From the NCBI RefSeq assembly GCF_964355755.1, contig NC_092675.1, positions 1,121,001-1,185,000 of the forward strand: a DNA stretch of 64,000 nucleotides, written 5' to 3'. Origin of the DNA: Antedon mediterranea (lineage: Eukaryota > Echinodermata > Crinoidea > Comatulida > Antedonidae). Of the stretch, positions 7,051 to 64,000 are shown one piece after another; position 1 is the first letter of the stretch, and the number at the start of each line of letters is the position of its first letter. The position numbers were made by a program, and so were the translations under genes. Under the pieces are notes generated by a model, which saw only the letters and a list, made by a program, of their open reading frames with translations, was not told where the DNA came from and made no database searches.

Positions 7051-9012
<1,962 letters not shown>

Positions 9013-9047
9013 CCTAAATAAAAGAATAGTAAAAAAGGTTGGAGATG

Positions 9048-9244
9048 CAGGCCTGGTCTTTTAAGGCGAGCGAGTGCGATCACTCACCTAACACACTCCT
9101 AAACTGCCTTTGAGGTGTGCAATTTACAACACGCCTAAATTTGGTAAACTTCTACACACCAAAAAAAATACAAACAGCACCTCTGAATGTATTGAGGAGT
9201 GCAAATTGTAGCACACCTAAAATTTTCAAAAGACAAGGCCTGGT
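9048..9244. mobile_element. MITE, CAGGCCTNGTCTTTT termini, copy 1
   Basis: One end reads CAGGCCTGGTCTTTTAAGG and the other, inverted, CCAGGCCTTGTCTTTTG, about 195 bp apart. A related copy in opposite orientation lies at 31866-32053 and shares inner blocks such as the CCTCAATACATTCAG stretch. Confidence 0.65.
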
Positions 9245-12111: not shown

Positions 12112-15100
12112 TTAACAATATTTAACCAGCGGATACGATTGCGACTGTTTCTGATAATACACAATATCATCAGACTCTCCTGGTACTCGGTCATCGATAC
12201 TTGACTGTGAAAAGGCGATGCATGAGTTAGTTCCAGAGTTAAACTTAAACGCTTTACAACACGGTAAGTGTACACATGTTTTTGAACATGCCAATGCAGA
12301 TGTATCTGTACCTTCGTAGAGCTGTGATCCCGTAATGCCCAGTGATTGAACAACCTTCGAAAATGTTGCGCTTTTGTCGAACGGCCAATCTATCAAAACA
12401 ATAAAAAAATAGTAGTAATTAAAGTACGTAATTGGCATGCAATTGACAACTATAAGATAGAGGTAAGGAGTAGTGGGTTAATACTTCCTAGTGGCATTCA
12501 GTGGCATCCACCACACACAAAATTTGGGAAAGTATAGCAGCCATGGAGAACTTATTTCTCCGTGTTATAACACTGTTTGGCAGGTAGACATACTTTCAAA
12601 TATCTTGTCTTTTGCAGCTTTTATTTCCACTTCATTTAATGCATGGCTGTAAACTTGTAATGCAGCTACTCTAGCAAATAAATCATCGTTGGAACTTCCA
12701 AGTTGTAGCTCGCTTAAGTCCAGGTCCATACTATCGAAATCTGTAAACGCAATGCTAGCGATCTCTCCATCTCTCCACAGTTTGAAGTTTCTTTTTGAAC
12801 CGTCAAATGTAATGGCAATAAAAGTCCAAACATTTGGTAAAAGTACATGTGCTTTCGTTATCTCCTGATCATTGTAGGAAACCGTGACTTCTGAATGATA
12901 TAAGTAGTTATTCGAATATGTTTGTTCAATTTTGAGATGTGTGTCGCCGTTGATGGTGCTTAGTATTTCACCAGACGATACTTCATTTGGATAGATGTAC
13001 ATCGTTACTGTTAACGCTGTTACTTCATTCCCAACACTCTGACTGTCAATAGTAATAGCATGGTTTAACGACTGAATATTATCGTCTAAACAGTCAGAAT
13101 TTAGGTTTACGGAATTAGTAGAAGCAAACCATGATTGTAAGCAACTAAGGCTAAGATCTGATATCCGAAGAACACTCAAGTCTGGGATTACTGAACCTAA
13201 GTAGAACGAAATTACAAATAAACAAACCTTTAATATATATTTATATAGAGAAAGAGAAGTTTAAACGTTATTAAATCTGAGAAATAGTGTATACTTATAA
13301 TTTATATTATATGATACTTAATTAAATAAGTGCGTACCAAGTACAGTATTCTCCAATACTGCTGCAGGATGTAAACCGGAATCAATGTGTGAAAAACAAA
13401 ACAAAAATGCATGTCAGCTAAAAAGAGGAGAATTGAAAATACCACAATGGTTATAATAACTTACTAAGCGGACATGATGATCCCGTGTCAGCCACATCGC
13501 AGTATTCCCACCTTACGTTTGCATCAGAAGTATAACACCATGCCCCCGGTTCATTGTCTGGGTTTCGACATAAGTTGTGATGTCCTAGCCCAGTCTCCGA
13601 ATTTGGAATCGAAATGCCTGAATACGGAACGTGAGGTGAATTTGATGTCCAAGTCTGACAAAGTATATTATTAGTTGTGGTATGCACTAGACCTCTATAA
13701 TCATTTTTGTTTTCCATGAGAGTGCATTCACCTGTGGAAATATCATATGAATATAAAAAGTAAAGTTATATAAAGAATTATATTCAAGATTGGTTCCTAC
13801 GTAGATGCAGCACTACGACGTATGCACAACGCAAGTTACTGCAGTTGACTAATTATTGTTTAAGCTTGGTTCTCACTAGAAACGCAACGCAAGGACGTAA
13901 CGCAACATAAAGCGTGGTTCTCACTAGAAACGCACCGCAAGGACGTAACGCAATATAAGTGATTTTACCAATCACAAGCGATGAAATATTGTCGCTTGTC
14001 ATTGGTCAACTCTCTTGCGTTTCGTCTTTTTTCGGCTTTACCGACAATTTGGAGGATGCATATAAGTCGTAACTACGTGTGAACCAAGCTTAAGGAAACT
14101 ACGCTTACAAACATTTATAATAAAATGGATATGAAAGCAACACGAAGATATTTATAGTTGTGATTGTGTGTAGACATGACTTACTTATTTCTGGCTCATA
14201 TTCATTGTAAACTCTGACCTCACACACGTTCAGAAATTGATCGATTGTTGGATGCCATAGCATGACGTAACGCCCAGAAATCGGTTCACCACATTCTAAA
14301 TCGATGATAGCACTTCTTTCTACTTGTTCCGTAGTAACGGACATTCCACATTTAGGTGCATTTCTTAAATCGTCATAAACATTACCAATTCTCACCTCAC
14401 TTTGTGCTAACCGATAATGACTACCTGAACCTGAAACAAAAATTGTTCTTCCATGTTTATAACGTACTGGTGGTTCATTGATCATGTTTAAGAATCTGAT
14501 GAGTTTGCCTCTCATCTTTCTAAATATTTACAATATTTATTTGCAAAAGCTTTTAAAAAAAGTACACATTTAAATAGTATCATTAAATTAAAAGTTTCAT
14601 AATTTACACTTTTTGCCATTTTAGTTACTTTATGTATCGTTAGGCATGTGTATGTGTTTAATCGGAATTGTTGTCAACCAACGTTTCTTTGTTCAAATTG
14701 GCAATGTTTGGTGCAACACGATTTTTGGAATGTCAGAATAGAGATAGAAAATGTGTACAATAAGTAATTAATTAGATAATGTTTATATTATTGATTTCAT
14801 CCCGTTGACATTGGCTACCTTCTTTTCGGTATATTTTTCTAGAATAATTGTAGTGTAAGGTGAGGCACAAATCCTTCACCACCACTAATAATTCAACATT
14901 TATTAGTTTCTATCAATGGTATAACAATACAATAAAAAAGAATGATAATTTATAATGAGAAAATACAAAAAATACCATTAATAGAAGATCTTGCAAGAAG
15001 AGAATACTTGTCACGCAAGACCCATAAACAAAGGAAAAAATACATTTGTATATAATTATTAAATAAAATAAAAGAAAGTCATGACAAAAACAGTTTGAAG

Positions 15101-17736
15101 GTCTAGTTTGAGTACAATGATAACAAATTACTTTTAAGTTTTTTACGAAAAGTTGGGAGAGAGGAAGAGTTAACAATACTAGTATCTAATTGATTCCAAA
15201 TTAAAGGGCCAGAAACATAAATAAAGTGGGAAGAACTAGTTAATCTTACAAAAGGAATAGTTAACTGAAACTTATGAACAGTACATCTTAAATTATGACC
15301 ATGGTTGAAATCAGCAGTGTTAAATAAATTCATCATGGGAGAAGGAAGATTGTTAGAAAAATATTGAAAGACAAAAGAGGCACTTTGCAATTTATGTATA
15401 TCACCTAACTTCAGTAACTTAAGTTCATAAAATAAAGGTTCAGATGGAGTAATGCGAGACGTACAAGTAATATTTCTAATAGCACGCTTAATCAGCTTAT
15501 TAAGTTTATCGAGATGTGATGGATAGTCAGCAGCCCAAATAATGTTACAATAATAAAGATGAGGTAAAATTAAAGAATTATATAATGAAAGAAGGATACG
15601 CCGGGGAAAAGTGTGCTTAAGATTATTTATAATCCCAATTGTTTTAGAAATTTTATTTGCAATATGATTCTGATGACTGGTCCATCTCAAGTTTTCCTGG
15701 ATTAAAACACCAAGGAACATAGTCTCTGACGTTTGTTTAATGTTATCTCCATTAATAAATATATTGTAATCAGTAAGGTCTAACGATTGACGTTGTGTAT
15801 GAAAAAGAATGTAATTGGTTTTCATGGAGTTTATAAGGAGTTTATTTGAGATGAACCAGTCATTATATTTTGACAATTCATTATTAACTATAGAAAATAA
15901 AACTTTTAAATCTGAATGAGAAAAAAATAGTGTAGTGTCATCAGCAAAGAGATGACATGGAGGGTGTCACTGACTCTGGATAAGTCATTTACGTAAATTT
16001 AAAAAAGGAGAGGGCCAAGAACCGACCCTTGTGGCACCCCACATGTCATCTCCTCCTCTGGTGATATACAATTACCAAACGAGACATATTGCTTCCTCAT
16101 ACTTAAGTAACTACGAAACCAGTTTAAGGTAATACCCCTGATTCCATAATTGTTAAGTTTATTAATAAGTATACGGTGATCTAAAATATCGAAGGCCTTG
16201 GATAAGTCGACAAAGACAGATAACAAAAATTTTCTTTTTTCAAAGGAGTTTGTTACATTATTTATGAGATCAAGGATTGCATGTGAAGTGGAATGAGATT
16301 TACGAAAACCATATTGATGAGCAAAGAGTACGTTATTGCAATCCAGGAACTCATAGAGACGGGAGTACATTAATTTTTCAATGATTTTGGAAAAGGTACT
16401 AAGTAGTGAAATGGGTCTGTAATTTGAAAGTATATCTTGTCTACCTTTCTTGAAAATTGGAATAACTTTTGCTAACTTTAAATAATTTGGAAAACTACCT
16501 GAAGAAAAAGATGAATTAATACAGAACGTAAGATGATTAATAATGAATGGAGAAATCAATTTAATAACGTATGGTGTAACTCAATCTCCACCACTCCCCT
16601 GTGAGATCAGACATAGGTACAATACCATAAAGTTACGCCAGACAAACTTTTCAGACGACAGTCAATGAAACCGTGTATTCTTTTTTTGTAAATGATCACG
16701 TATCAACTAAATTTGAAATATGTTCACAGACTGGGTATTTAAACTCATTAGACATACCACATTAACCTAACAATCATTTGCATGATCGATAATCAATATA
16801 AATATATACAGATGAATGTCACATGCTTTCAGTTAAAAATGGAATGTTGTCAACACTTTGAACACTTTTAATGTCACATGCGTCATGCGTAGATGTTGTC
16901 AAGGTGATTGGTGAACACACTAAGAACACTACTACTCTCGACACAAATAAAATAGTAATGAAAAACCTTTGGATGATGTTCCAATGATTTAACTTATTTT
17001 TCGATATAAATAGTAATAAAACACTTACTTGGCTGTACTCTATTGATAATAGTAACTTTAGTAACGTTGTACTCTTTGGACAAATCAATCTTTAGGAATT
17101 CTTCACTGTTGTCGTCTAAAACAAAAATTATACAAATAAAATTATGTATTTAGTCATTCTTAAAATTTAAAACAGTTGTTATTCTTTTTGCTTATGTTCT
17201 TTTTTGTTAAGAACATTTTAAAGACTATTCAAAATTGTTTAACTCTTTTTTTTTTTGTAATATAACTTGATACACTCACGTGAATGGTAACATGTTGATC
17301 CCATCACTGTGTAATCATTTCCATCAGTAACCGCTCTGCCGTGGTAACCACCAAAAACTGAACTCTGCGTTACATCCTTTTTGTACGATAAATAAGCTGA
17401 AATACATAGATCTTATACATAATAAATCCTGCAAATTAACAACGTGATATTATCCTTGAAAGAGTATATAAGTGAAACTATACGAGGGTAGTATCTTATG
17501 AAATCTCACTCTTTCCTGATTATTTGGTATCTGCTGAACTATTTAGCTAATCGGATTTTATTCCTTGAAACAGCTTCTTAACCATAATCGGGAATTCCAC
17601 CTAGGCCTTGTTTAAGTACAAAATAGATAAAATAACGGTATCATAATTTAACAAAGTAACAGTACTTACACGTGTCAGCATATTTCCATAAAAATATGAA
17701 AGAACAACCGACAAAAAGAATCGTATTCTGCTTCAT
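12112..17736 (-). CDS. Secreted mosaic protein: F-type lectin, kringle, LamG-like, PAN/apple (554 aa)
   Basis: Exons: 17736-17670 (start, signal peptide), 17396-17280, 17115-17029 and 14430-14185 (F-type lectin, about residues 25-172), 13731-13465 (kringle, 173-261), 13196-12594 (LamG/concanavalin-like, 262-462), 12389-12112 (PAN/apple, 463-554, TAA). They sum to 1665 nt = 555 codons with no internal stop, and every intron is phase 1. The signal peptide has core ILFVGCSFIFLW. The lectin part shows FGGYHGRAVTDGN, FLKIDLSKEYNVTKVTIINR and CEVRVYN. The kringle has six cysteines with NDYRG, LCRNPDN and AWCY. The PAN part has ACSKTC and CCKAFKF. Role inferred: extracellular binding or adhesion. 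Two uncertainties: the 14430 acceptor has a second AG 6 nt further in, and without the 12594 donor the LamG exon reads on to a stop at 12565, giving a form without PAN. Confidence 0.85.
12565..12593 (-). other. Read-through alternative 3' end of the LamG exon
   Basis: Past the strong donor (GAAA|GTATGT) at 12594 the LamG frame continues for a few residues (MSTCQTVL) to TAA at 12567-12565. If the donor is skipped the product ends after LamG, near 470 residues. It could be intron retention only; there is no transcript evidence here. Confidence 0.35.
13864..14089. mobile_element. 226-bp MITE flanked by TTAA, in intron 4 of the lectin-kringle gene
   Basis: The element begins GCTTGGTTCTCAC and ends GTGTGAACCAAGC, giving 13-bp terminal inverted repeats with one mismatch. 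TTAA stands at both borders (13860-13863 and 14090-14093). Inside, a 40-odd-bp block (GGTTCTCACTAGAAACGCA...) is repeated directly. TTAA duplication fits piggyBac-like or Kolobok-like superfamilies; no transposase frame is present. Confidence 0.75.
14900..16600 (-). pseudogene. Broken LINE (non-LTR retrotransposon) in intron 3 of the lectin-kringle gene
   Basis: Minus frames 16559-15999 and 15876-15103 encode two parts of one reverse transcriptase of the jockey/CR1-like kind. Seen: KVIPIFKKG and NYRPISLLS, motif A FVDLSKAFD, motif B GVPQGSVLGPLLF, then motif C FADD in another frame near 15940, and the thumb/C-terminal part with FLGVLIQENLRW and LYYCNIIW. Two frame shifts lie between 16010 and 15900, and no endonuclease or first ORF is present, so the copy is dead and 5'-truncated near 16580. 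It is in the same orientation as the host gene. The right edge is sharper than the left, where the 3' tail fades into AT-rich sequence. Confidence 0.85.
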
Positions 17737-22038: not shown

Positions 22039-25000
22039 TTAAAACTGATGACCTTCTTCTGTGAGCTGTTGGAGAATTCGGAATGATCGTGATTGGTTGA
22101 TAGGATTATTTTGATGGTCTTCTAGGCCGGCAGGGTGAGGATTAGTATACTGAATCTGTGCCGCAGTTGGTAGGTGTATATAGGCGTCTTTATCAATTTC
22201 AATATTAGAATCATCTCTGCGAAAAATATAAAAAGTGTGCATAAAAAGCCGTCATTTTTAATAACAAGTTTTATAACAAAAAAAGATCAAACAATTTCAC
22301 CTAGATTGTCATCTAATATTTCATTTCTCAGTTACCTCATTCTTAGGAAACTACCGATTCCTGATCGACTTTCATAGAAACTTTAAAAAAAACCTCTATC
22401 AATTAACTATCAATACATTTTAACATTTATAGGCCTATTGACCATCTTTCTAGAGCTTGACTTAAAATCAAACGAAATTAAATAAAGTCAAACATTTACC
22501 ACTATTTACAGGGTCAGGAACTAAAATTAAGTTCTCAATACAGGAAAACTAGCTTTCTAAACGTTTAATAAGAATTAGAATCACAACTTTGAGGAAATAA
22601 AAACCTCTGTCAAATCTAGAAATGATCGCAACTTACTCTCCCAATTTTCCAGTAATCATTCCTTCTGTCTGTCCTCTAAAGGTGTCAGCAATATTATTTG
22701 CAGAGTAAAGACCCATTGGTGAATTGTATTGGTTATGGACGACAGTGGCGGTTCCTCCTAAAGCAGTTCCACGAAACGGCACCTTGGTAACGGGCGGCGC
22801 ACGAGGAGGAGCTGTTTTCTTAAGAGGAGCTGGGAACATTGCATCTTTCTGGAAAGATAAAGATGCATTTACTTTTAGACCTTTCGCATTAGTAAAACTA
22901 ATATACATTATCGAGTTATATAGTTCTTGTTGATCTACTTTTTGCGATACAAGTAATGGTCCTTCTAGTGTATTGCACGAACATTCATCAGCCACATGGC
23001 TACGCCTTTTTAAAGGCTAATAATTAGAACTGTAGGCCTTAGTTTGTTCTTTTAAGTTCAAATTAAGTCTCAATATTGTTTTGTAAATTAAATACATGGT
23101 GTTTCAACAGCTTCTTTTTAAACTAATAACAAATAATGTCTGAGTAGGCCTGCTTTAGTCCATGGTTTGAGGTAACAACATCATCCAAACAAATATCTAG
23201 AATAGATTTGGGAATGGCACCGTTCGATGACTTTTCACACGAAGCTTGAGTACGCCTATCAGTTGCATTGTGAATAATATTTGATATTTCGTTTATGGTG
23301 AAGGAAAAAGGTTACGTTGAAACTTACCCAACGTTTCATGCGTTATCATCGCACTTCTGATGTCAGCTTGGTTTGCCGAAATAACCCTTTTCCTTCACCA
23401 TTAATGAAATTAATATTTGCTGGAACAAGATTTTTTCACTTTTATTGTATGTAATTACGTTCAAGCGTACCTGTCTGCTCGTTGTTGGAGACAATTCATA
23501 AACATGGCCAGGAGTTTCGTAGACTACTGTTCCTGCAGGAAAATATTCACGTGGTCCCATTGGTATCTTGTGCTTTTCCTTATTCTCAACTGGCTTAGGA
23601 ACTACAGGCGGTGGAAGTGGTGAACTCAAACCAGAGCCTCTGTTATATGCCAAGAAATTAAACATTTTATGATTTCAAACATAAATTAATCATGTCATTA
23701 TTCGATCATAGCTCGGTAACGAATCATTTACACTTTGGACTATCTCGTTTAATTCTAGGCATGGTTTTGTCGAAATAGGGTGACATATCTACCTATTACT
23801 CTTTTACTTTTATATGTTATCTTGTGAAAGAGAAACAGAGAAAAGAGAAGGAGAAACAATTTTAAAGCAAGTCTTCTTTTGATTTCGATCCTTCAAAATG
23901 AGGAAGTGGATGAGCCGGCTCGCCCCTCTCTAAATACTTACAACATGGTTATATTGTATTTGACAGTATTCTTGTCATTTTAATCCGTTTTTACCAACCT
24001 ATGTCCAGGGTTGTAACTCAGGACTCGTTCAACTCAAATGAAACTTTGAGTTCATTATGCACGATGCATTATAAATCATCCTAAATCGATAAAGAATATT
24101 TAAATGACGTCGTACCAACCTTTCTAGGATCATTTTCAGGTTTGACGCTTGTTTGATGACTGTTTGTCCCTCAAGATGTGTCAGGTTGTACGTTTGTTGT
24201 CCATTAATACTTCGTACGATATCACCTGGTAAAATTTTGGCCCGATTTGCTTTGCCACCTGGAGTGGTCTATCATTAAAAAAAAAAATATGAATTGCATA
24301 ATTATTGTTTATATATAAAATGTAATGTATTTCAAATTACGTTTACATCGTTCAATTTTTTAAAATTTTTATGACATGATGTTTTGTAGATATTAAAGAT
24401 ATCCTTTGTAGTAGAAGTTGGGACCGATGGTATTAAAAAAAAAATGTTTACAAAAATTATGCCCAACCAATTGATTAATTTTTGTACTGATTTTTGTTTG
24501 TATAGGCCCCCATGCTTTGAGTGCTTTCACAATTTTCCTCTTTCACCGACCTCTTTTTTTGGGCCACTCAGATGTGATTAGGCCTAAAATAAATGTAATT
24601 AAAACATGGAAACTTCGTGTTTCCAATTGTGTATAACAAAAATGACTTTCATAGCGATCAATGAATTACTTTTCAATTCCAGTATCATCAGAATGATTGT
24701 ATAAAAGAATATGGAGTGAAAACATTTGTAAAGAAATCCTAAATTTTTCGCTCGAGGGCACATGTTCGAATCTTCTTCGAGTCTTTTTTTTAAAAATGAA
24801 TTCATTTCGTTGATGAACTGCTCGTTATAGGTTCTCAAATATGTTTCTAATTATAGATCGATGTTGAAACATTATAGGCTTATGTCATATGTCATACAGC
24901 AGCAGCAGCAGGAAAAACAGTTAAGCAAAGAAACAAAATGAAATAAATAATAATTAAACACAAATCCATTTTCTAGATCTTTTGTAATTTGTGTTATGTC

Positions 25001-63000: not shown

Positions 63001-63484
63001 ATCCCACTGTATATGTATACAATCTTGCTGAATCTATCAGTATAAACTAATTTTCTGCTTATGAAGGGTATTTGAAATGGAGAGATGGACTGAACTCTAG
63101 TTTGTGTGTTTATATAAACTGTATTTATTCACGAGACTGATCTACAGTACAACTTGTTCAATCAACATTGATTGTTTTTACACAAGTTTGTGATATTACA
63201 AATAATCCATATAAATATGAAAAAAAAAGAAATAAAAAAATTAAAATTGAAAAGAAAAGTTTCTCTATATATCGACAGCTGCAATTTAGGCAGCTCAAAA
63301 CATTGTTATATTATTGATTTAGCATTTCTCTACACAGCAATAAAGATTAATGTTTTTCTCCTATTTAGACCACACTGCCTTATTCTCTGTGATGTGTGCT
63401 TCCTGTGAGTTTGCTATTGAACCTGGTGATGAATGGCTTGAAGCCCTTAGTGCTAGCTGGCATTCAAATTGCTTCAACTGCAAT
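30085..63484 (+). CDS. Zasp: Zasp / Alp-Enigma family protein: PDZ, ZM, LIM1, linker, LIM2-LIM4 (3' end outside window)
   Basis: Exons: 30085-30183, 36680-36831, 37329-37434, 40662-40894, 42251-42351, 43019-43120, 43976-44117, 44668-44753, 45112-45220, 47681-47857, 54601-54690, 56889-57095, 59628-59675, 61048-61160, 61628-61811, 62093-62273, 62721-62841, 63369-63484. They join in phase to 789 codons without a stop; the last ends at a donor, so LIM4 is completed outside. PDZ 1-84; ten glycines 136-145; ZM about 161-186 ([20 protein letters not shown]). LIM1 304-354 has all eight zinc ligands (C304 C307 H324 C327 C330 C333 C351 D354). The linker 355-641 has repeated [12 protein letters not shown] and eight prolines. 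LIM2 642-692, LIM3 701-751, LIM4 from 760. LIM1 set apart from LIM2-4 matches fly Zasp52 rather than vertebrate LDB3. Role: Z-disc and adhesion scaffold binding alpha-actinin (family knowledge). Exons 43019, 54601, 56889 and 59628 leave the frame unchanged if skipped. Confidence 0.93.
31866..32053. mobile_element. MITE, CAGGCCTNGTCTTTT termini, copy 2
   Basis: Starts CAGGCCTTGTCTAAAAAA and ends AAAAGACAAGGCCTGG. It is an inverted relative of the copy at 9048-9244. The inner CACACCTCAAGGGCAG and GTGAGTAATCGCACTTGC blocks match that copy on the other strand. Confidence 0.65.
32566..33199. mobile_element. Non-autonomous DNA element, about 634 bp, TTAAAGNCCC termini
   Basis: The left end TTAAAGCCCCATTCCCTACG and the inverted right end TTAAAGACCCCTTCCCTGCA form imperfect terminal repeats. 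The interior is clearly richer in CpG than its surroundings (GCGGCCCGC, GCGCGCGG, GATCGATCG) and contains GTACG inverted words and AGGCCTA words. No open frame of useful length exists. Confidence 0.6.
35245..35397. repeat. Minisatellite, 28 bp x about 5.5
   Basis: Head-to-tail units starting AACAGCTATTATTGGTCAAC, nearly identical. The period of 28 leaves frames open through the array, which explains the 109- and 69-codon frames here; they are not genes. Confidence 0.95.
36259..36402. mobile_element. TAA-type MITE, full-length copy
   Basis: Starts GGCTCTGTCTACACTATCAA and ends with its inverse (GATAGTGTAGACAGAGCT). TAA stands on both sides (36256-36258 and 36403-36405), a 3-bp target duplication. 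Inner arms also pair, so the 144-bp element is close to one long hairpin. TWA duplications and this size fit PIF/Harbinger-type MITEs. Confidence 0.85.
36936..37046. repeat. Tandem duplication in Zasp intron 2
   Basis: A block from AAGATAGGAGCTT to GGTGCTAAAGAACCTTTT occurs twice in a row. The second copy carries an extra TTATATATATTATA insertion. Confidence 0.8.
38651..39281. mobile_element. 631-bp non-autonomous element, TTA target duplication, in Zasp intron 3
   Basis: The left terminus GGGCGCGTTTATACAACACG and the inverted right terminus GGCTGTGTTTATACAACACC are 20-bp inverted repeats with three or four mismatches. TTA flanks both ends (38648-38650, 39282-39284). These ends fit PIF/Harbinger. 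An open frame of 88 codons inside (38627-38893) has no transposase feature. Confidence 0.75.
42510..42592. mobile_element. TAA-type MITE, truncated copy
   Basis: Only one half is recognisable: the CCAAATATGGTAGTGAT inner block and the AGTTTGATAGTGTAGACAGAGC end. The other terminus is missing. Confidence 0.7.
42711..42730 (+). CDS. Candidate alternative last exon of Zasp (PDZ-ZM short form)
   Basis: A strong acceptor (pyrimidine tract, then CATCTAG) is followed by a frame that, joined in phase to exon 42251-42351, adds D-L-Q-S-S-S and stops at TAA 42728. The product would be about 236 residues with PDZ and ZM but no LIM, matching the organisation of the minus-strand paralogue. No good poly(A) signal is seen close behind, which lowers confidence. 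Confidence 0.4.
42763..42883. mobile_element. TAA-type MITE, copy upstream of the 43019 exon
   Basis: Begins AGCTCTGTCTATACTATCAA after TAA and ends TTTGATAGTGTAGACAAGACT. The inner GACATGATGATGTCATATCA stretch is itself palindromic. The copy ends about 135 nt before a Zasp exon whose donor is weak (GTAAAA). Confidence 0.8.
44382..44502. repeat. Tandem duplication, 62 bp x 2
   Basis: The block starting ATGTATTATGTATATGTATG occurs at 44382 and again at 44444 with almost no change. It is in the intron after LIM1's first exon. Confidence 0.9.
44875..45040 (+). mobile_element. Possible LINE 3' tail
   Basis: The T-rich stretch ends TTTGAAAATAAAGTGATCAATCAATCAAT, i.e. a poly(A)-like signal followed by a short tandem tail, the usual look of many LINE 3' ends. 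No coding part remains. It is judged on form only. Confidence 0.35.
45292..45422. mobile_element. TAA-type MITE, full-length copy
   Basis: Ends AGCTCTGTCTACACTATCAA and its inverse. TAA duplication is intact on both sides (45289-45291, 45423-45425). It begins 71 nt after the donor of exon 45112-45220. Confidence 0.85.
45443..45840. repeat. Minisatellite, 59 bp x about 7
   Basis: Units starting GTATGTGTATGGATACGTGC at 45443, 45502, 45561, 45620, 45679, 45738 and 45797. The last has an internal deletion. The array follows directly on the MITE that ends at 45422. Confidence 0.95.
46080..46213 (+). mobile_element. Possible LINE 3' tail with (TGAA)n end
   Basis: The segment ends CTAAATAAAGAATGAATGAA, a poly(A)-type signal plus TGAA tandem tail typical of CR1/L2-like LINEs. 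No protein-coding remnant is visible. Confidence 0.35.
46917..47056. mobile_element. TAA-type MITE, slightly degraded copy
   Basis: Starts AGCTCTGTCTATACTGTCAA after TAA and ends TTTGATAGTGTAGAAAGAGCT, followed by a changed TAG. The inner ACCATATTTGGG block is duplicated. Confidence 0.8.
47983..50295. mobile_element. 2.3-kb terminal-inverted-repeat transposon in Zasp intron 10
   Basis: The left end CATGGAGTAAAGAATAAGAG continues to a 30-bp repeat that returns inverted at 50266-50295 with one mismatch. GTTATTG stands directly outside both ends (47976-47982 and 50296-50302), and both sides can be read as 8 bp if the shared C is included. A 7-8 bp duplication with 30-bp ends suggests a hAT-like or P-like element; the family is open. 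The inside has only short frames (83 codons or fewer), so it is non-autonomous. It contains a (CCCCTCTT)n run near 48530. Confidence 0.85.
50935..51180 (+). mobile_element. tRNA-derived SINE-like relic
   Basis: GAGTGGCCAAGCGGTTGAC at about 50938-50956 is a good pol III A box of the tRNA-Leu/Ser kind. A weak B-box-like word (CTGCTCGACC) follows about 40 nt later. The 3' end is uncertain and it cannot fold into a full tRNA as far as I can see. Confidence 0.4.
51931..52375. repeat. Minisatellite, 37 bp x 12, followed by a 15-G run
   Basis: Units starting ACCTCATCAGGAATGATGTC are nearly identical. A few carry ACGTCATC in place of ACCTCATC, creating TGACGTCA. The array is closed by GACGTCATT and a run of 15 G (52383-52397). 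There are no spacers, so this is not a CRISPR-like array. Confidence 0.95.
52746..52866 (+). CDS. Candidate alternative last exon of Zasp (PDZ-ZM-LIM1 form)
   Basis: After an acceptor-like TTGAAG, a frame in the phase of exon 47681-47857 reads [14 protein letters not shown], then [15 protein letters not shown], and stops at TAG 52864. Its codon choice and proline/lysine composition resemble the neighbouring linker exons. No good donor precedes the stop, and an AATAAA cluster lies near 53262, so it fits a terminal exon. The pyrimidine tract is weak. If used, the product is about 475 residues with only LIM1. Confidence 0.5.
54042..54109. repeat. Tandem duplication, 34 bp x 2
   Basis: ATTGGTCAATTAATGTCAAG ... 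AGAAAGC occurs twice without change. Confidence 0.9.
54885..55125. repeat. Diverged tandem repeat, about 65-75 bp x 3-4
   Basis: Units share CAGCATGGAAACATGTTCATTT-like starts and a TCCACACAGGGTAGTAGTCT block, with internal gaps. It lies between Zasp exons 54601 and 56889. Confidence 0.8.
55221..55373. mobile_element. TAA-type MITE, copy with duplicated inner block
   Basis: The ends ATCTATACTATCAAACTAG and TTTGATAGTGTAGACAAGGCT are degraded but recognisable. The inner TATGGTAGTGATATG block occurs twice. Confidence 0.8.
55549..55676. mobile_element. TAA-type MITE, degraded copy
   Basis: CTCTATCAAATG... starts it and GTTTGATAATATACAGTAGACT ends it. The inner GACATGATGATGTCATATCA block is kept. 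Confidence 0.7.
58340..58793. repeat. Minisatellite, 46 bp x 10
   Basis: Ten head-to-tail units starting AAATGATTTGTATAAGTATC and containing GAGAGGTCAGACC, almost identical to each other. It is in the intron between exons 56889 and 59628. Confidence 0.95.
60242..60257. repeat. Run of 16 G
   Basis: One of three long G runs in an AT-rich window (others 10323-10334 and 52383-52397). On the Zasp sense strand it would sit in intron RNA. Length is likely variable and prone to sequencing error. Confidence 0.9.
61965..62056 (-). mobile_element. tRNA-derived SINE-like relic, minus strand
   Basis: On the minus strand GTAGCTTGGTGGTTAAGGTG matches a tRNA A box and D-loop well. The region where a B box should be (GAGATCCAAAC) is degenerate. 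It lies just 40 nt before the LIM2 exon, antisense to Zasp. Confidence 0.4.
62545..62684. mobile_element. TAA-type MITE, copy just upstream of the LIM3 exon
   Basis: Begins TCTACACTATCAAACTTGAC and ends AAAGTTTGATAGTTT; the outermost bases are lost. It ends 36 nt before exon 62721, so it adjoins the branch-point region. Confidence 0.8.
62878..62985. mobile_element. TAA-type MITE, copy just downstream of the LIM3 exon
   Basis: Begins GCTCTGTCTACATTGTCAAA and ends TAGTTTGATAGACAGGGCT, followed by TAA. It begins 36 nt after the donor of exon 62721-62841. Confidence 0.8.
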
Positions 63485-63513
63485 GTAGGTTATCAATATT
63501 TAATTTTTTTTAA

Positions 63514-63628
63514 TGCTCTGTGCATCAAACTTTACTTAACAACACGAAGACACGACAATGCCATATCACTACCATATTTGGACATATCACTACCATATTT
63601 GGGCACATCATCACTTTTGACAGAGCTT
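63514..63628. mobile_element. TAA-type MITE, degraded copy just downstream of the LIM4 exon
   Basis: Begins GCTCTGTGCATCAAACTTTA after TAA and ends TTGACAGAGCT before TTA. The ACCATATTTGG inner block occurs twice. It starts 29 nt after the donor of exon 63369-63484. Confidence 0.7.
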
Positions 63629-64000
63629 TACACACATGAATGTTAATTACAGAATGAAAAGTAAACTTTCACTGAAGATGAGACTTAATTGATTGAGTTG
63701 TTGCCCTATGCTGCACCAGTTCAGAAAAAAAAAACGAAGTCAATGTTTCCCACGCGGCTATACACATATCGATTGGTGCATATCCGCATGTAGCATCGTG
63801 AAAACAAAATACTGAGGTTTGATTTTATTTGCCAGAGCCGAAAGCTAGACCCTTTAGGAGGTTTCAGACTTGCAATGTAAATTGTTAAATTTTTAACCTT
63901 TTAAATGTTATGACATTTCTATTGAATAAATTCTTCAATTTGAATTTATTGGACGAGGCAGACATTTTACAAATGATCAAAATTATTTTTTTATTTATTT

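Follow-up and report, generated by a model that had tools for sequence, protein, structure and literature searches.

The window, a 64-kb stretch of genomic DNA, carries on its minus strand what looks, from its exons and from those of related loci, like a real gene of a multi-module family present in the same animal. The gene model runs from 17736 to 12112 in seven exons totalling 1665 nt (554 codons and a TAA stop), and it encodes an F-type lectin domain, a kringle, a LamG/ConA-like domain and a PAN/apple domain in this order. Relatives with the same order of exons are found elsewhere in the genome, some with the kringle and some with none found, and the gene is thus one member of a large family and no lone oddity.

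Exon structure and domain content

The first exon (17670-17736) holds the start codon and a leader-like hydrophobic segment (aa 1-23) and ends in a gtaagt donor, its ATG at 17736 being the first to follow an in-frame stop that lies 5' of it. The F-type lectin domain is divided over exon 2 (17280-17396, aa 23-62, with D47-G48 and H60), exon 3 (17029-17115, aa 62-91, with R87) and exon 4 (14185-14430, aa 91-173, with R97); an alternative acceptor for the last of these (exon start 14424) would remove two residues. The kringle occupies a single exon, exon 5 (13465-13731, aa 173-262), followed by the LamG/ConA-like domain in exon 6 (12594-13196, aa 262-463) and by the PAN/apple domain with the stop codon in exon 7 (12112-12389, aa 463-554). 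The six introns, read without a preset phase, are all GT-AG and all phase 1, and these sites and the in-frame junctions confirm what a preliminary description of this DNA had claimed, namely that seven exons join into one stop-free protein of 554 residues.

Two points were absent from that description: the minus strand, and a reverse-transcriptase frame in intron 3 (14431-17028, 2.6 kb). This frame (15999-16580) lies in the sense of the gene, matches the Pfam family RVT_1 (E 6.3e-23) and interrupts no exon; we read it as a putative LINE-type element. The open frame beside it (15103-15966) returned no family in the Pfam scan. Elsewhere in the window, where the GC content is 31-35%, a fragment of a gene of the ribosomal protein S11 family is seen at 8716-9060 on the minus strand (Ribosomal_S11, 29.9 bits vs. 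25.1), and a DUF4749 match (22633-23016, minus strand) and a LIM-domain match (63344-63643, plus strand) probably belong to two different genes since they lie on opposite strands.

Every domain scores above its Pfam curated cut-off: Kringle at 178-253 (64.7 bits vs. 34.3), Laminin_G_3 at 308-454 (39.7 vs. 27.6), F5_F8_type_C_2 at 45-147 (37.6 vs. 27.8), F5_F8_type_C at 31-150 (35.5 vs. 28.2) and PAN_1 at 492-543 (28.8 vs. 21.4 in the whole protein, and 33.9 when the PAN exon is scored alone). The scan and the joined exons together bear out the domain order lectin, kringle, LamG, PAN that had been proposed. These five families are all that the 554 residues return at E up to 1, so the protein has no protease domain, in agreement with the earlier reading; the same scan found no inhibitor domain and no C-terminal trypsin-like domain of the plasminogen/HGF type.

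The lectin part matches FBP32 (3cqo, E 6.4e-21, two lectin stretches) and the lectin 1k12 (E 9.7e-10, one stretch), which we take to be the F-type lectins of striped bass and eel, respectively, and these matches and the F5_F8_type_C_2 score place it by sequence among F-type lectins. We know of no kringle, LamG or PAN domain in either of the two fish proteins. The kringle shows the RNPD...WCYT core, and its exon matches the kringles of plasminogen (E 2.8e-63, five matched stretches in plasminogen), while membership of the last domain in the PAN/apple group follows from its PAN_1 score. At E up to 0.1, Laminin_G_3 is matched by 13 of 13 aligned family members and PAN_1 by 11 of 11, and the Pentraxin domain is matched by 0 of 13. 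The LamG family profile gives weak matches to an S-layer protein (E 6.4e-4) and to the pentraxin PTX3 (E 7.7e-4), and the PAN family profile weak ones to plasminogen (E 0.064) and HGF (E 0.018). An AlphaFold model of the LamG exon from its single sequence was poor (mean pLDDT 40.2). The protein has a computed mass of about 59 kDa without the leader, and none of its 19-residue windows rises above 1.24 on the Kyte-Doolittle scale.

A family with a repeated exon order

A six-frame search of the one genome covered (354 Mb) with the LamG exon (E up to 0.001; all counts are lower bounds) gives at least 46 LamG exons, the window's own among them. An F-type-lectin exon lies 5' on the same strand of all 46, within 9 kb, and within 4 kb for 44. 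A kringle is present between lectin and LamG at 13 of the 46 loci and was not found there at the other 33, and a PAN match to the window's exon follows within 3 kb 3' at 10. This neighbour count was entered by 55 of 108 lectin matches, 20 of 76 kringle matches and 10 of 11 PAN matches, those elsewhere or weak being omitted by hand. The genome is rich in kringles, to which the 76 matches attest, and the 108 F-type-lectin-like matches are those at E up to 0.1 genome-wide.

Of the other 45 LamG loci, 30 were then searched together with the window, 31 loci in all, with profiles of the single exons at E up to 0.05. Lectin exon c and LamG turned up in all 31, PAN in 29, lectin exon b in 27, lectin exon a in 21 and the kringle in 13, and the exons found always keep the order lectin, (kringle), LamG, PAN on one strand. 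Besides the window, this means lectin exon c in 30 of 30 loci and PAN in 28 of 30; the PAN exon was not found by this search in L040 and L044. Thirteen of the 31 loci had contributed to the PAN profile, and the exon was found in 16 of the 18 outside that set. Six of these gave E values from 9.7e-25 to 2.5e-17 (L002, L004, L006, L007, L009 and L043, the last a near copy of a locus inside the set), and ten gave values from 1.8e-5 to 0.035, the weakest of which (L034) is doubtful. Some rows were omitted from the profiles (LamG of L003, L004, L006 and L008; PAN of L002 and L012; lectin exon a of L009 and exon b of L018), and no exon-profile match at E up to 0.05 arose in the two control stretches, 39 kb from the window and 20 kb from contig C17 (59 kb together).

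Both ends of the gene have counterparts in its relatives. In 10 of 15 loci, hydrophobic leader candidates with a phase-1 donor, which the search script demanded, precede the first lectin exon; with alternative ATGs included, there are 14 in sense against 0 in antisense, in 20,673 bases. The stop that closes the PAN exon falls at the same point in L013, L014, L015, L018 and L019 as in the window. Splice-site candidates of the paralogues were kept only if they were phase 1. Their phase is therefore no independent evidence, and their exon lengths are divisible by three partly for this reason.

The gene could in principle be two neighbours, a lectin gene and a kringle-LamG-PAN gene, joined in error, since lectin exons 3 and 4 are parted by intron 3, which is 2.6 kb long and holds the reverse-transcriptase frame. 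That intron, however, sits within the lectin domain and not between lectin and kringle, and the window's exon junctions join in frame. Moreover, with a same-strand lectin exon 5' of 46 of 46 LamG exons, this is not a case of two neighbouring genes run together; the order repeated across loci rules such a joining out, and we give it next to no weight. The preliminary description had named two separate genes as the outcome that would overturn its proposal, and the recurring lectin-LamG-PAN order in the family contradicts it.

Some loci are of interest in themselves. At C6:19736223-19786484, seven LamG exons of kringle-less members follow each other at a spacing of about 8.2-8.5 kb with near-equal match scores, which looks like a recent tandem array. 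Fifteen further lectin-LamG pairs are clustered at C3:29703539-29958085 with no kringle match; among the five of these loci that were read, PAN is weak in L020, L039 and L041 and was not found in L040 and L044. About 19-26 kb before the first base of the window, L042 (C6:1095500-1102500, plus strand) has the order PAN, partial kringle, lectin b and c exons, PAN, with both PAN exons above the PAN_1 cut-off, and is perhaps a second mosaic type.

Kringle history and ligand-site residues

The history of the kringle was followed on a midpoint-rooted tree of 31 genes, for which lectin c, LamG and PAN were used and the kringle was set aside. Kringle-bearing and kringle-less genes are intermixed on this tree, with a minimum of 6 changes on the best tree, 4 forced by well-supported branches, and 5-6 across bootstrap trees. 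With shuffled kringle labels the average was 10.3 changes, and a value as low as the observed one arose in 1 of 500 shuffles. The changes are fewer than for shuffled labels and yet several, which means that the kringle is clustered but does not mark one clade. The window gene itself forms a clade with five kringle-less genes (L013, L014, L015, L018 and L019; support 100/98). Because long branches meet deep in this tree and its root was placed at the midpoint, the deep order and the direction of change are unsure.

A second tree compared 11 of the 13 kringles of the family with 30 of the 63 kringle matches outside it. The kringles of L002 and L012 were omitted since they have no single-frame match covering 60 profile positions, and that of L042 was omitted by hand. 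A branch with a support of 94/96, below the firm level, separates the 11 kringles of the family from the others; the bootstrap had not settled, L011 and L034 have very long branches, and the inner order departs in part from the gene tree, e.g., for L010. Since kringle-bearing genes are scattered in the gene tree and their kringles group together, a single gain with several later losses is the most likely history of the kringle and the one that fits both trees best. Exchange of kringles among gene copies may be an alternative to this. A late gain in the window gene alone is not favoured, as its kringle groups with those of distant members. We also considered the spacing of the last two cysteines, C-x8-C in the window kringle, as a family mark of single origin, and this is ruled out because 20 of the 30 non-family kringles sampled share it (5 have C-x4-C and 5 other spacings).

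In the window gene, H60, R87 and R97 occupy the fucose-triad columns of FBP32 and 1k12 in the alignment, the triad of His, Arg and Arg being present at these columns in both proteins; the roles of the columns are taken from general knowledge and from PMC5712786 as far as its text was available. The accessible part of that source gives the fucose motif as HX24RXDX4(R or K), from which, as from FBP32 and 1k12, the window gene differs by having Gln89 in place of the RxD aspartate and a longer loop after it (by about three residues relative to FBP32), so that the stretch from R87 to R97 exceeds the length set by the motif. Gln89 and the longer loop count against a specific fucose role. For the calcium motif, given there as h2DGx, V-T-D-G-N at 45-49 fits at D, G and N, with Thr replacing a small hydrophobic residue.

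The triad is kept in 7 of 7 kringle-bearing genes with three lectin exons aligned (the window gene, L002, L003, L005, L008, L009 and L010) and in 0 of 4 such kringle-less genes (L013, L014, L015 and L017), counts that are not independent because the genes share ancestry. Three kringle-bearing genes outside these counts depart from the pattern: in L004 the His is replaced by Gln and the second lectin exon carries a stop (possibly an assembly error), and the R87 position holds Val in L011 and Lys in L012. Kringle-less L020, in turn, keeps both readable arginines, and the triad does not track the kringle cleanly. In the kringle, D231, E233, W237, Y239, R246 and W247 line up with the columns of plasminogen kringle 1 that we take to be its lysine-binding site.

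These patterns suggest a further reading, which we regard as possible but doubtful: the kringle exon might be a dispensable phase-1 cassette in a large undescribed recognition family, having entered it once and dropped out several times independently; in the sister clade of the window gene, which is without the kringle, the fucose site would have decayed as well. L002 and L009 have a frameshift inside the kringle exon (assembly error possible), which would be harmless if that exon were skipped. The exceptions that weigh on the link between kringle and triad are L011, L012 and L020. If the reading is true, the copies would have surrendered lysine docking and fucose binding together on a switch of ligand.

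Proposed function and relation to known proteins

We judge it somewhat probable that the window gene encodes a secreted, soluble and non-enzymatic bridging recognition lectin. The gene is one of many duplicates in a large family and has retained all four modules, while its nearest sister clade is without the kringle exon. Through H60, R87 and R97 the F-type lectin domain would bind fucosylated glycans, the LamG domain would serve as a second ligand-binding or oligomerising jelly-roll, and the kringle and PAN domains would hold protein partners, the kringle via its lysine-binding site. The protein could thereby bridge a glycan-bearing surface (a microbe, a gamete or the animal's own cell) to host proteins or cells, i.e., act as an opsonin or agglutinin. 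In-frame phase-1 exons, the Pfam domains, the leader-like exon, the lack of a 19-residue window above 1.24 and the stop after PAN all support a recognition lectin, as do the triad residues, their retention in the counted kringle-bearing genes and the kringle residues aligned with plasminogen kringle 1. The family, large and partly in tandem, was counted toward it as well, such families being usual for recognition genes; Gln89, the longer loop and the exceptions to the triad pattern weigh against it. We infer secretion, binding and role from comparison of sequences; the secretion proposed at the outset is supported in so far as the first exon is leader-like, as are the candidates in related loci, and the recognition or adhesion factor restricted to one lineage, also proposed there, may be a fitting description.

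Immunity, fertilisation, matrix and clotting are indistinguishable by sequence as the role of this protein. We find it quite unlikely that the protein serves gamete recognition or cell adhesion, in the manner of the oyster bindin F-lectins, in place of being an immune lectin; to our knowledge, kringle and PAN are not among the parts of bindins, and this speaks against it. A large and partly tandem family would suit such a protein too, and the oyster sperm bindin is termed a combinatorial fucose lectin in a title cited in the accessible part of PMC5712786. It is also unlikely that we are dealing with a matrix, mucus or wound-clot protein that controls proteolysis without a protease domain of its own, where kringle and PAN would dock proteases or clot proteins and the lectin parts would anchor to glycans. 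In its favour, the kringle gives strong matches to plasminogen and HGF and the PAN family profile gives weak ones, and an expanded FA58C family in a brittle star has been linked to coagulation after amputation (PMC11959729, in the part available). Against this reading, the Pfam scan returned neither protease nor inhibitor domain, and the lack of a kringle found between lectin and LamG in 33 of 46 members means that lysine docking is dispensable for most.

Plasminogen and HGF have PAN first and a trypsin-like domain last. The window gene has kringles in common with them, together with a weak PAN profile match, and differs in having one kringle, PAN last, no protease domain and added lectin modules. 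PMC5712786 reports fusions of F-type lectins with pentraxin, C-type lectin, CCP and FA58C modules, and the word kringle does not occur in its main text as far as this was available. Among these, the Xenopus pentraxin fusion protein (PXN1-XENLA, Xla-PXN-FBPL) unites F-type lectin domain(s) and a pentraxin jelly-roll in one protein; the weak PTX3 match of the LamG profile is a further likeness, whereas the window domain is Laminin_G_3 and not Pentraxin in Pfam, and the accessible text on the fusion protein mentions neither kringle nor PAN. Sea urchin SpCRL and Drosophila furrowed/CG9095 likewise fuse the F-type lectin to other secreted modules, and the partners named in the same portion of PMC5712786 are CCP, C-type lectin, S/T/P, factor I-membrane attack complex and transmembrane parts, with kringle, LamG and PAN not among them.

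In the literature searched, which covered few subscription papers, we found no description of a protein with F-type lectin, kringle, LamG and PAN, nor a paper with an F-type lectin and a kringle together; where fucolectin and kringle are mentioned in the same text, they stand in separate lists of different proteins. Single modules and F-type-lectin mosaics as such are already known, and only their combination is undescribed in that literature. An architecture already catalogued in a known family, the second outcome that the preliminary description had named as overturning its proposal, did not turn up in these papers. There is an even chance that the architecture already stands, without a paper, in public protein databases for related animals, as domain databases list many automatic architectures; the literature holds no such protein but is silent on databases.

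With this gene the F-type-lectin mosaics gain a type with four modules, although the molecule itself is not of a new kind. The genome-wide family lets domain loss be followed exon by exon and, if its members are opsonins, it would be a ready test system for how soluble recognition diversifies by retention or loss of a kringle.
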